From: Microcoleus sp. AS-A8
Lineage (GTDB): Bacteria > Cyanobacteriota > Cyanobacteriia > Cyanobacteriales > Coleofasciculaceae
Direction: 5' to 3'
Length of the DNA stretch: 64,000 nt
Assembly: GCA_039962225.1 (NCBI GenBank)
Contig: JAMPKV010000002.1
Span: 186,001-250,000, forward strand
The notes below the pieces were generated by a model, which searched no databases, was not told the origin of the DNA, and saw only the letters and a list, made by a program, of their open reading frames with translations. How positions within the stretch are numbered: the stretch's first letter is position 1; every line of letters begins with the position of its first letter. The position numbers were made by a program, and so were the translations under genes. Shown here piece after piece: positions 32,791-56,380 of this stretch.

Positions 32791-32860
32791 CGGTGTTGTG
32801 TGTTGCGTCTCCTACACTAGAGTAGAAAACTGTTGCGATAAGACAGCAAACAAAACGCCT

Positions 32861-34345
32861 ATGACCACTGCTGCACCGGTTAAAACTCAGTATGAAGCAA
32901 TTATTGGTCTAGAAACCCATTGTCAACTGAGTACCCAAACCAAAATTTTCTCTTCTTCCTCTACAGAATTCGGTGGGACTCCGAATACAAACATCGATCC
33001 AATTTGTTTGGGACTGCCTGGAGTATTGCCCGTCCTGAATCAAAAGGTACTGGAGTACGCTGTAAAAGCAGGTTTAGCCCTGAATAGCCAGATTGCCCCC
33101 TACAGTAAGTTTGACCGGAAACAGTATTTTTATCCTGATCTGCCCAAAAATTACCAGATTTCTCAATTCGACTTACCGATTGCCGAACGCGGCTGGCTGG
33201 AAATTGAACTCCCTGATGAGGCGGGTAACCCCATTCGCAAAAGGATTGGTATCACTCGTCTTCACATGGAGGAAGATGCGGGAAAATTGGTTCACGCGGG
33301 GAGTGACAGGCTTTCCGGTTCCACTTACTCCCTCGTCGATTACAACCGTGCAGGTATAGCCCTGATCGAAATTGTCTCAGAACCCGATATGCGTTCTGGG
33401 CAAGAAGCGGCAGAATATGCTCAGGAACTGCGCCGGATTATGCGCTACATCGGTGTCAGCGACGGGAATATGCAAGAAGGTTCGCTGCGCTGCGATGTGA
33501 ATATTTCCGTGCGCCCCGTGGGACAGGAGGAGTTTGGCACCAAAGTCGAAATCAAAAATATGAACTCCTTCAACGCCATCCAAAAGGCGATCGAGTACGA
33601 AATTGAGCGGCAAATCGCGGCGGTTGAAGCGGGAGAGCGCATTATTCAAGAAACTCGCCTGTGGGAAGAAGGCAGCCAGCGCACGATTAGTATGCGGGTA
33701 AAGGAAGGCTCCAGCGATTATCGCTACTTCCCCGAACCCGATTTACCTCCAATTGAGGTATCTAAAGAGCAACTAGAGCAATGGGGTAGTGAACTCCCCG
33801 AACTTCCTGCTCAGAAACGGCATCGTTATGAAAGCGAACTGGGGCTTTCTGCCTATGATGCTCGCGTGCTAACGGACGATCGCCAAGTGGCAGAGTATTT
33901 TGAAGCGGCTGTTGCTACGGGCGCTAATGCTAAACAAACGGCTAACTGGGTGATGGGAGACATTGCGGCTTATCTCAATACAGAGAAAGTGGCGATCGCA
34001 GAAATTGCCCTCAAGCCAACGACCCTTGCAGAACTGATCAACTTGATTGAAGACGGCACCATTAGCGGTAAGATTGCCAAAGACATTTTACCTGAACTGC
34101 TCTCTCAAGGGGGTTCGGCTAAAGAATTGGTGGAGCGTAAGGGTCTGATCCAAATCTCTGACTCTAGTCAACTCGAAGCCATTATCGATGAAGTGATTGC
34201 GGCTAATCCCAAGGAGCTAGAACAATATCGCAATGGCAAAACCAAGCTCCAAGGCTTCTTTGTCGGGCAAGTTATGAAGCAAACCAGTGGGCGGGCTGAT
34301 CCTAAGCTGACTAACCAAATCTTGAGTAAGAAGCTCAATGGCTAA
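32861..34345 (+). CDS. gatB: Asp-tRNA(Asn)/Glu-tRNA(Gln) amidotransferase subunit B
   Basis: Predicted 494-residue GatB, which phosphorylates and amidates Glu- or Asp-tRNA with GatA and GatC. Marks: [59 protein letters not shown] (kinase core), [16 protein letters not shown] and the C-terminal tRNA-binding YqeY-like domain (about 400-494, ending TSGRADPKL then TNQILSKKL). The frame is open from 32798 but [15 protein letters not shown] at 32861 fits the family. GatA and GatC are not adjacent. Its 3' end borders the 132-bp repeat array. Confidence 0.97.
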
Positions 34346-34448
34346 GCAGTGGCGATTCCTCTACGTTCATCAAATTCAGATGTAAACTTCACAAAATTCA
34401 CACAATCAGGGGTATCACCCCTCAAGCCCATCTTGTTATAGTGTGCTT

Positions 34449-34503
34449 AGTAGATGCACCCTGATAGTCAGGAGAGTCGCCTCAAGTGGCTCTCCTTTTT
34501 TTT
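34449..34503 (+). ncRNA. Putative tandem small RNA, copy 1
   Basis: Most diverged copy. The -10 box is TATAGT (34437-34442), about 6 bases ahead of the conserved block. The predicted RNA has CCTGA-TAG-TCAGG, a perfect small stem, directly followed by GGAGAG...CTCTCC and eight T (34496-34503). The extra G-C closing pair of the terminator stem (GGAGAG/CTCTCC) is changed on both sides relative to copies 2-4, which supports a selected fold. Transcription is inferred. Confidence 0.5.
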
Positions 34504-34580
34504 GTGCCTATAAACGCCTGTTAGAAAAAAACCGGAATAGGGGGTGACACCCTCCACCCCGAACCTTTATACTTGTGAGA

Positions 34581-34634
34581 AGTAGATGCACCCTGATGAT
34601 CGGGAGAGTCGCCTCAAGTGGCTCTCTTTTTTTT
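34581..34634 (+). ncRNA. Putative tandem small RNA, copy 2
   Basis: The -35-like GTGACA and -10 TATACT (34568-34573) are spaced 18 bases apart; the predicted start is near 34581. The RNA would carry a single-stranded AGTAGATGCA lead, a small stem CCTGA-TGA-TCGGG and the terminator hairpin GAGAGTC...GGCTCTC with eight T (34627-34634). Confidence 0.55.
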
Positions 34635-34712
34635 GTGCCTATAAACGCCTGTGAGAAAAAAAACTTAAATAGGGGGTGACACCCCCCACCCCGAACCTTT
34701 ATACTTGTGAGA

Positions 34713-34766
34713 AGTAGATGCACCCTGATGATCGGGAGAGTCGCCTCAAGTGGCTCTCTTTTTTTT
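34713..34766 (+). ncRNA. Putative tandem small RNA, copy 3
   Basis: Identical to copy 2 across the predicted transcript. The -10 TATACT is at 34700-34705, and the dyad GGGGTGACACCCC at 34673-34685 overlaps the -35 position. The terminator T-run is at 34759-34766. Confidence 0.55.
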
Positions 34767-34844
34767 GTGCCTATAAACGCCTGTGAGAAAAAAAACTTAA
34801 ATAGGGGGTGACACCCCCCACCCCGAACCTTTATACTTGTGAGA

Positions 34845-34899
34845 AGTAGATGCACCCTGATGATCGGGAGAGTCGCCTCAAGTGGCTCTCTTTTTTTTT
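34845..34899 (+). ncRNA. Putative tandem small RNA, copy 4
   Basis: Identical to copies 2 and 3 across the transcript, with nine T after the hairpin (34891-34899). The -10 TATACT is at 34832-34837 and the dyad at 34805-34817. This last terminator also insulates argJ from upstream transcription. Confidence 0.55.
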
Positions 34900-34987
34900 G
34901 TATCAATACCAGCCGCTTCGCTATCTAACTTCCTGAGACTTGATATAATCGCCTCTCAAACAGGAGTCAAGGTTTTCAGGAGGCGTC

Positions 34988-36229
34988 ATGTCAGACTGGC
35001 AAGAAATTACAGGTGGTGTCACAGCTCCCAGAGGATATCGAGCGGCAGGAATTACTGCTGGACTGAAACCTTCAGGGCTTCCTGATTTAGCATTGATTTT
35101 GTCAGATGTAGATGCGATCGCAGCGGGTGTGTTCACAACCAATCAAGTTTGCGCCGCCCCTGTAGAGTATTGCCGTCAACGATTGCAAGCTAAAGCCAGT
35201 GCTCGTGCCGTCTTGGTTAATGCGGGACAAGCGAATGCAGCAACAGGTGAGCAAGGCAGGCAAGATAGCCTGGAAAGTGCCAAAGCTTTGGGGCAAGCGC
35301 TGAATATTCCACCCGAATCAATTTTGATCGCTTCGACGGGTGTGATTGGGCAACGCATTCGCATGGATGCCCTATTGTCAGGAATTCCTCAACTTGTCGC
35401 CGCCGCCTCAGAAACGGGTTCAGATTCAGCAGCACGCTCAATTATGACTACAGATTTAGTCCCCAAATCGATCGCCCTGGAAACTACTATTGGCGATCGC
35501 ACCGTGCGAGTGGGTGGCATTTGTAAAGGTTCCGGCATGATTCATCCGAACATGGCAACCCTGCTGGCATTTGTTACTTGCGATGCTACTGTCTCTACTA
35601 CCTTGTGGCAGCAGATGTTGAGTCGAGCAGCGGATAAAAGTTTCAACCAAATTACGGTTGATGGAGATACCAGTACCAACGATACGTTAATTGCTCTGGC
35701 AAATGGTCAATCCCGGACAGCCGCCATTACCGAGATGGGGCCAGAAGCGGAAAAATTGGAGGCGATGCTAACAGCGGTTTGTCAACACTTGGCAAAAGCG
35801 ATCGCACGGGATGGAGAAGGCGCAACTTGTTTAATTGAAGTACAAGTTTCGGGTGCAGGCGATGACAAAGCAGCGCGTCAAATTGCCAGAAGTATTGCTG
35901 GCTCATCTTTAGTTAAATCGGCGATATTTGGTCGCGATCCAAATTGGGGTAGAATTGCCGCCGCCGCAGGTTATGCGGGAGTGCCGTTTGAGCAAGAAAA
36001 TCTCAGAATTCAGTTGGGGGATTTCTTGATGATGGAAAATGGTCAACCCCTTCCTTTTGACCGTGCAGCAGCTAGTAATTATCTGAAACAAGCAGCAGCA
36101 GGTGCGTATTTGAAAGAGGATACGGTTTTAATTTCCGTTAGTGTTGGCAATGGACATGGTACGGGTAATGCTTGGGGTTGTGACTTGAGTTATGACTACG
36201 TGAAAATTAACGCGGAATATACGACTTAA
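34988..36229 (+). CDS. argJ: Bifunctional ornithine acetyltransferase / N-acetylglutamate synthase
   Basis: Predicted 413-residue ArgJ, which recycles the acetyl group between N-acetylornithine and glutamate in arginine synthesis. The protein opens with ITGGVTAPRGYRAAGITAG and has AVFTTN-like GVFTTNQVCAAPV and LVNAGQANAATG. The autocleavage segment is CKGSGMIHPNMATLLAF, where the conserved Thr becomes the new N-terminus of the beta chain. The C-terminus has FGRDPNWGRIAAAAGYAG. The ATG follows CAGGAGGCGTC, a strong ribosome site. Proximity to the repeat array, whose last terminator is 88 bases ahead, suggests separate promoters. Confidence 0.97.
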   Translation: MSDWQEITGGVTAPRGYRAAGITAGLKPSGLPDLALILSDVDAIAAGVFTTNQVCAAPVEYCRQRLQAKASARAVLVNAGQANAATGEQGRQDSLESAKALGQALNIPPESILIASTGVIGQRIRMDALLSGIPQLVAAASETGSDSAARSIMTTDLVPKSIALETTIGDRTVRVGGICKGSGMIHPNMATLLAFVTCDATVSTTLWQQMLSRAADKSFNQITVDGDTSTNDTLIALANGQSRTAAITEMGPEAEKLEAMLTAVCQHLAKAIARDGEGATCLIEVQVSGAGDDKAARQIARSIAGSSLVKSAIFGRDPNWGRIAAAAGYAGVPFEQENLRIQLGDFLMMENGQPLPFDRAAASNYLKQAAAGAYLKEDTVLISVSVGNGHGTGNAWGCDLSYDYVKINAEYTT

Positions 36230-56267: not shown

Positions 56268-56380
56268 TGTTGAAGGTTTGAAGGTTGAACCGTTGAAGGT
56301 TTGAAGGTTGAAAGTTTGAAGATATAACCTGTTAACCTGCAACCTGTTAACCTGTTAACCTGCAACCTGCAACCTGCAAC
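56268..56380. repeat. Short tandem repeats between MCP and CheA genes
   Basis: Two kinds of 7-8-base units lie in tandem: TTGAAGGT-type units (about 56268-56321) followed by AACCTGC/AACCTGTT units (56326-56380). The array fills almost all of the 122-base spacer between the MCP stop and the CheA start. It is likely variable between strains and could alter spacing within the operon. Confidence 0.8.

Follow-up and report, generated by a model that had tools for sequence, protein, structure and literature searches.

A tandem array of NsiR1-like small RNA genes with palindromic promoters upstream of argJ in Allocoleopsis

NsiR1 has been discussed mainly as a heterocyst RNA, together with a relative reported in Limnospira (PMC8400943). 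In the parts of the published accounts consulted, Nostoc sp. PCC 7120 carries 12 tandem NsiR1 copies upstream of hetF, with nsiR1.1 upstream of and divergent from that gene (PMC9045159), and the DIF1 motif is described together with its dependence on HetZ (PMC7377430). The DNA requirement of HetR is given as GGGnnnnnCCC, with GAGGGGTCTAACCCCTC as the site at hetP (PMC4192349), and the role of HetR in species without heterocysts has been called a mystery (PMC11298460). Within the open full-text literature searched, we found neither an argJ-linked NsiR1 nor a palindrome-driven class, either of which earlier NsiR1 papers may mention, and the only text joining NsiR1 and argJ was a table naming argJ2 (PMC10287535, consulted in part).

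Here we analyse an array of small RNA genes between gatB and argJ, lying in a stretch of 64,000 nucleotides (the window). Two copies in the same-genus genome G001 coincide in position with copies that Allocoleopsis franciscana PCC 7113 carries on its plasmids NC_019741 and NC_019742; G001 is therefore PCC 7113 or a near twin, and the host of the window is Allocoleopsis, family Coleofasciculaceae. The host genome (100% complete, 1.35% contaminated) possesses a HetR gene, the first 98 residues of which are identical to Nostoc JL33 at 88/98 positions and to Fischerella muscicola at 89/98. No nifH was found in it above the model cut-off (best match 217 bits, against 394), while G001 has nifH. To our knowledge, Allocoleopsis forms no heterocysts.

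Anatomy of the array and its membership of the NsiR1 family

The gatB-argJ interval holds four cassettes at a spacing of 132 bp (unit starts 34393, 34525, 34657 and 34789; TRF score 828), each consisting of a promoter -10 box, a stretch of about 55 nt and a hairpin followed by 8-9 T. The features are as follows.

32798..34345, plus strand: gatB, upstream neighbour (NCBIfam GatB models, up to 737 bits)
34410..34420, plus strand: unit 1 palindrome GGGTATCACCC, HetR-site-like, centre at about -34 (pattern search)
34437..34442, plus strand: unit 1 -10 box TATAGT (sequence)
34449..34504, plus strand: unit 1 NsiR1-like RNA (RF02399, 37.2 bits at 34448-34504; terminator stem 34470-34496)
34542..34552, plus strand: unit 2 palindrome GGGTGACACCC (pattern search)
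34568..34573, plus strand: unit 2 -10 box TATACT (promoter scan)
34581..34634, plus strand: unit 2 NsiR1-like RNA (RF02399, 32.7 bits; terminator stem 34602-34628)
34674..34684, plus strand: unit 3 palindrome GGGTGACACCC (pattern search)
34700..34705, plus strand: unit 3 -10 box TATACT (promoter scan)
34713..34766, plus strand: unit 3 NsiR1-like RNA (RF02399, 32.7 bits; terminator stem 34734-34760)
34806..34816, plus strand: unit 4 palindrome GGGTGACACCC (pattern search)
34832..34837, plus strand: unit 4 -10 box TATACT (promoter scan)
34845..34900, plus strand: unit 4 NsiR1-like RNA (RF02399, 32.7 bits; terminator stem 34866-34892, T run)
34988..36229, plus strand: argJ, downstream neighbour and synteny partner of the array (TIGR00120, 551.6 bits)

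This layout bears out a first-pass annotation of the DNA, which had described tandem promoter-to-terminator genes for a short RNA with a TATAGT -10 box once (unit 1) and TATACT three times (units 2-4). The same annotation spoke of an exact 132-bp repeat, which is right for the spacing of the four units but not for their sequence: unit 1 is only 64% identical to unit 2, whereas identity between units 2 and 3 is 97% over 132 bp, and units 3 and 4 share an identical first 110 bp. Terminator-like matches on both strands numbered 10, against 1.4 expected; the promoter-like matches of the consensus scan say little by themselves, since there were 3 against 1.2 expected (sd 0.9).

Two other readings of the interval were set aside. 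A repetitive 132-aa open reading frame on the minus strand (34508-34906) was rejected as a gene, being an artefact of a period divisible by three, and a viral origin of the array was rejected, the exact GTAGATGCACCCTGATGA being absent from IMG/VR. Elsewhere in the window, positions 56269-56380 are densely packed with short tandem repeats (periods 7-8, 15 and 23 bp).

All four units match the NsiR1 covariance model RF02399 end to end at the E-value threshold (37.2, 32.7, 32.7 and 32.7 bits; E-values 1e-5 to 1e-4). No unit reaches 39 bits, the Rfam gathering cut-off of this model, and at that cut-off the array carries no Rfam annotation. The 5' segment GUAGAUGCACCCUGAU, common to the RF02399 model, is found in 4/4 units. 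We regard the units as almost certainly small RNA genes homologous to NsiR1; the array is therefore a separate locus of the NsiR1 family and not a separate kind of RNA, so that the earlier proposal of a separate tandem-sRNA locus survives only in the sense of a place apart from the hetF one. Within the known family the array forms a distinct branch (the argJ branch, class B), differing in promoter, terminator stem and synteny. A model built from 50 class B RNAs (R1) gives unit 1 a score of 74.3 bits, units 1 and 2 being among its training rows; the class B model scores argJ-linked copies outside the training set at 55-73 bits and copies of class A, defined below, at 20-40 bits. As a probe sequence for RNA of the array, GUAGAUGCACCC can be used alongside a class B stem probe.

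A 3' intrinsic-terminator hairpin is present in all four units, as judged by folding, terminator scan and covariation. Across the 50 class B RNAs, its 11-pair stem consists of standard pairs in 92.1% of cases, and 28 cells have changed on both sides, against a shuffled mean of 3.6, with 0/500 shuffles as high. The suggestion that structure is under selection thus holds for the terminator hairpin. It does not hold for the proposed small 5' stem CCUGA/UC[A/G]GG, which shows no two-sided change in the 50 sequences and is picked by folding in no unit; the predicted folds give another weak 5' pairing in units 2-4 and none in unit 1. The invariance of columns 3-16 in one RNA alignment is built in by the seed used to choose its rows, and conservation of the 5' end was judged instead on 28 model-found copies from the host's own genome.

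Two promoter classes and the palindrome

In the host genome, RF02399 gave 31 matches at E<=1, 15 of them at or over the cut-off; among 14 control genomes, none had a match over the cut-off and 10 had matches at E<=1. Thirty of the 31 matches (all except C48) were retrieved, and two of these, L117 and L118, proved false as NsiR1 copies, lacking the seed (L117 lies inside a 536-aa open reading frame), which leaves the 28 seed-bearing copies. Within this set TAGATGCACCC is exact in 27/28 and the full 16-mer GTAGATGCACCCTGAT in 18/28. Leaving units 2-4 and a contig-end copy apart, none of the copies examined lies inside an open reading frame of at least 150 aa; L101, L105 and L114 overlap frames of 75, 140 and 89 aa, respectively.

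The promoters of the 27 distinct copies fall into groups: 11 carry TCCGGA near -35 (class A, the DIF1 motif), 4 carry TCCTGA, 11 carry GGGT-N3-[A/G]CCC (class B) and 1 carries neither. A GAGAG/CTCTC-type stem accompanies 10/11 class B copies, 0/11 TCCGGA copies and 1/4 TCCTGA copies. The window array is class B, and the class B pattern has 12 sites in the host genome. The highest-scoring copy (L089, G000:C1:264530-264589; 65.1 bits) is a single class A copy upstream of and divergent from hetF, the neighbouring gene being identified by NF045509 at 651 bits on a partial protein (full-length cut-off 1200). It is thus a single copy at hetF, where Nostoc has a 12-copy array, in a genome without nifH above cut-off. 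This position, upstream of hetF and on the opposite strand, is typical of NsiR1 and is not that of the window array between gatB and argJ. Near position 81480 of contig C12 lies a decayed class B copy (L293), in which palindrome and stem remain but the first part of the conserved 5' end is gone.

The DIF1 motif TCCGGA, present at other copies in the same genome, is absent from the array promoters (0/4 units). These carry instead a GGGT-N3-ACCC palindrome, with GGGnnnnnCCC intact in 4/4 units. The first-pass annotation had placed a -35-like GTGACA 18 bases before the -10 box in units 2-4; the position is correct, but the role is not, GTGACA being the centre of this palindrome. The three central bases vary among relatives (GAC, ATC, TAC, TGC, CTG and others) while the arms are kept, and a regulator site is therefore more probable than a sigma-70 hexamer. 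Furthermore, when argJ-linked copies were collected with the RNA seed as the only criterion (39 copies, from 15 loci, the window and G001), the distance from the best GGGT-N3-ACCC match to the RNA start was constant in 39/39. Base frequencies from loci partly fetched by the promoter pattern are biased, so class counts and these seed-only copies were used instead.

In our judgement, the palindrome is very probably a regulator site. Ordinary constitutive sigma-70 promoters of the form GTGACA-18-TATACT with no regulator site, which would fit the consensus-scan matches in 3/4 units, are quite improbable: relatives differ in the hexamer but keep the palindrome arms, also in a search that did not require GGGT/CCC, a spacing of 18 is long, and the 3 matches compare with 1.2 expected. 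Reading the palindrome as a minus-strand terminator, as a scan suggested for units 3 and 4, is likewise disfavoured by the single offset in 39/39 copies and by the plus-strand orientation of both flanking genes.

As to which regulator would bind there, we lean towards HetR. The same small RNA genes could instead respond to another dimeric regulator, or the palindrome could be a repressor operator over the -35 region, with HetR uninvolved; this we consider possible, if on the unlikely side. Published NsiR1 is DIF1-driven, which counts against a palindrome bound by HetR. In addition, the site is mostly imperfect in heterocyst formers: GGGN5CCC is intact in 15/15 copies from five non-heterocystous genomes, 6/22 copies from heterocyst formers and 2/2 copies of unknown status, a difference for which Fisher's test gives 6e-6, overstated since the copies are not independent. 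Heterocyst status is here our assumption from organism names.

A genome-wide search with GGGTNNNRCCCNNCA gave 42 matches, 14 at NsiR1 copies (counted by coordinates, two being one site read on both strands and one the decayed copy L293), and the remaining 28 equal the 28 of the reversed-pattern control. This search for a HetR regulon beyond NsiR1 thus returned no excess over the reversed control, so that the HetR reading finds no support elsewhere in the genome, a result that also speaks for a different regulator; if GGGTNNNRCCCNNCA is a HetR site, the NsiR1 copies are its only visibly enriched use in this genome. One site outside long open reading frames, L297 (G000:C13:148416-148434), is a near-exact hetP-type palindrome, GAGGGGTCTAACCCTTCA; such non-NsiR1 sites are no commoner than in the control. 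In favour of HetR over another regulator, the palindrome agrees in its arms and 3-bp centre with the hetP site and with GGGnnnnnCCC, as given in the consulted part of PMC4192349, and NsiR1 and HetR co-occur tightly across genomes.

Among 57 genomes (relatives and the host's own), NsiR1 was found in 42 (E<=0.001) and a HetR_C match in 40, 39 of these over the cut-off. NsiR1 is present in 40/40 genomes with a HetR match and in 2/17 without one (G009, which is 89% complete, and G027), and these two cases count against HetR and for a different regulator. This co-occurrence follows phylogeny and its points are not independent; phylogeny alone could give such a pattern. In a set of 21 genomes, NsiR1 was found in 19, being absent from a Chroococcidiopsidaceae genome and from a Pseudanabaena with no HetR match. 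The class B pattern occurs in 39/57 genomes and the strict class A pattern in 36/57, with reversed-pattern controls of 0 for both; of 19 named genomes, 14 have class B.

Conservation upstream of argJ and the genes downstream of class B copies

The unit, whose presence in other cyanobacteria the first-pass annotation had proposed to check, is conserved in relatives. Across 42 other cyanobacterial argJ loci (six with less than 600 bp upstream; L035, without upstream DNA, left out), the 14-mer seed with at most 2 mismatches lies within 900 bp upstream of argJ on the same strand in 15 and on the opposite strand in 2; L009 has a copy 1.8 kb upstream. Among the loci with copies are those of Symplocastrum, Symploca, Fischerella, Nostoc, Spirirestis, Calothrix and Anabaena. 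Copies are present in 10/11 non-picocyanobacterial loci in which the end of gatB is no more than 1.5 kb upstream of argJ, Laspinema being the exception; picocyanobacterial loci with gatB within 3 kb of argJ carry none (0/4). The argJ-linked copies of the 15 loci and G001 all score below the RF02399 cut-off; in Nostoc JL33, 5 copies from a different array do attain it. Two of the argJ loci, L077 (Pseudanabaenaceae) and L046 (Synechococcales), have NsiR1-like copies on the opposite strand, and at L077 three of the four copies shown carry TCCGGA. At L343 (G018) and L371 (G015), a class B copy lies by the 3' end of a gatB-like gene, called as such from its first residues only, in inverted orientation.

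On a phylogenetic tree of argJ, the array label (17 rows, the window and G001 among them) requires 5 changes against 13.5 in shuffles, with 0/500 as low. It falls on 16/22 rows of one branch (support 89/91) and on ESFC-1 outside it; 18/39 inner branches of the tree are weak. The argJ branch is probably older than the split between Allocoleopsis/Symploca and the heterocyst formers.

Comparison of copy number with a related strain, another proposed check, gave 4 units here and 2 in the same-genus G001: each has one divergent unit, accompanied by three standard units in the window and by one in PCC 7113. Similarity among the standard units is 93-98% inside the window, and 93-94% between these and that of PCC 7113; the three units of Symplocastrum show 96-99% similarity to one another and 79-82% to those of the window. 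This fits local amplification and homogenisation.

Since copies stand on the strand of argJ in 15/17 argJ loci with upstream copies, and operons on the same strand immediately follow some stand-alone class B copies, the array might be a leader or attenuator: its terminators would control whether transcription continues into argJ (and, at other loci, into defence operons), with the short RNA as a by-product. We consider this improbable. The 5' end hardly varies (TAGATGCACCC is exact in 27/28 own-genome copies), which an attenuator would not need; Laspinema retains gatB-argJ without the array; and, among the class B rows listed with their downstream gene, the next gene is on the same strand in 40, on the opposite strand in 38 and not within reach in 4.

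The many scattered copies, some on PCC 7113 plasmids, could also suggest a dispersed REP/MITE-like repeat, or a micro-ORF that begins with the AUG in the 5' end, with no RNA function. This is very improbable. The conserved block consists of promoter, RNA and terminator, the stem changes are compensatory and the position at argJ is kept between genera; a micro-peptide was rejected because frame length is not conserved, ranging from 4 to at least 30 codons after the AUG among 205 distinct copies.

In Allocoleopsis, some stand-alone class B copies lie directly upstream of defence operons, on the same strand. In the host genome, one precedes a small HTH gene and then DrmD-DrmMI, DISARM-type (L304, contig C39), one lies directly before a type I restriction-modification operon (L305, C26) and one directly before a DrmD-like/DrmMI-like operon (L306, C32); in PCC 7113, copies precede type I restriction-modification genes on pMIC7113.05 and HmaC/DUF499 on pMIC7113.06 (L302, L303). 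In all, 5/16 class B loci of the two Allocoleopsis genomes are defence-linked (contig-end locus C20 left out), and most of these copies group together in a sequence tree, for which no support values were computed. The comparison with class A (Fisher p = 0.013) is unfair, because the next gene is on the same strand in only 1/20 class A copies; in 18/20 it is convergent. Outside Allocoleopsis, no defence link of class B was seen among the matches listed (25/58 families), which include kinases and one SNF2-type helicase; the scan covered 39 downstream proteins, namely 34/43 (six argJ and three near-duplicates left out) and 5 from Allocoleopsis. Downstream of other class A copies, the matches listed (25/64 families) include kinases, TPR and subtilase proteins. 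At the class A locus L392, Cas1 and Cas4 genes begin 2.6 kb away on the opposite strand, and at the class B copy L313 (G001:C1:3011901) split Csx1-like and Cas10-like pieces begin 2.2 kb downstream, past an opposite-strand gene.

Proposed function and comparison with described systems

We think it fairly probable that each unit is a complete gene for a trans-acting RNA of about 55 nt of the NsiR1 superfamily, with a palindrome promoter most likely bound by HetR and a 5' end that targets mRNAs. Transcription would start near 34449, 34581, 34713 and 34845, from promoters predicted to combine a good -10 box with a GGGT-N3-ACCC dimer site in place of the -35 element, centred about 34 bp upstream and most likely bound by HetR, and would end at the conserved terminator. 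Pairing with mRNAs would then be the task of GUAGAUGCACCCUGAU, the nearly invariant 5' end, as published NsiR1 pairs with hetF and alr3234. The same 5' end would also be made from DIF1 promoters, at other NsiR1 copies of this genome, so that one targeting sequence would have two inputs. The number of units would be set by local duplication and homogenisation, and may set RNA dose, as the first-pass annotation had supposed.

A broader interpretation is more tentative, and we hold it doubtful as a whole. HetR may have driven an NsiR1 network in filamentous cyanobacteria before heterocysts arose, with the argJ-linked and scattered palindrome branch as its main direct output in species without heterocysts, whose sites are perfect, and with relaxation in heterocyst formers, where DIF1-driven hetF copies took over; one Allocoleopsis sub-branch would then have become a portable head cassette of defence operons (restriction-modification and DISARM), tying phage defence to filament state.

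A related, syntenic NsiR1 branch, missed at Rfam's cut-off, is widespread among filamentous cyanobacteria that have HetR, and its carriers include genomes with no nifH above the model cut-off. Its 12 class B sites in the host genome are candidates for direct HetR output and make a role of HetR without heterocysts testable, and the genome is a naturally occurring example of two promoter classes feeding a single targeting sequence.

Compared with the HetR sites in the consulted part of PMC4192349, the array palindrome, a putative HetR site, has the same arms and centre length as the hetP site GGGT-CTA-ACCC; a CA two bases after CCC, as at the hetZ site, is found in 4/4 units, and the A two bases before GGG of the ChIP consensus in unit 1 only. 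The NsiR1-like RNA162 of Limnospira indica is likewise an NsiR1 relative in a non-heterocystous filamentous cyanobacterium; the part of its description consulted mentions no array, promoter class or argJ linkage (PMC8400943). From NsiR1 of Nostoc sp. PCC 7120 the array differs in scoring below the curated cut-off, in lacking TCCGGA at -35 and having a palindrome promoter with a -10 box, in its terminator stem, and in lying at argJ rather than hetF in a host without nifH above cut-off. The two share the 5' end GUAGAUGCACCCUGAU, their size, a terminator hairpin and an arrangement in tandem copies with their own promoters.
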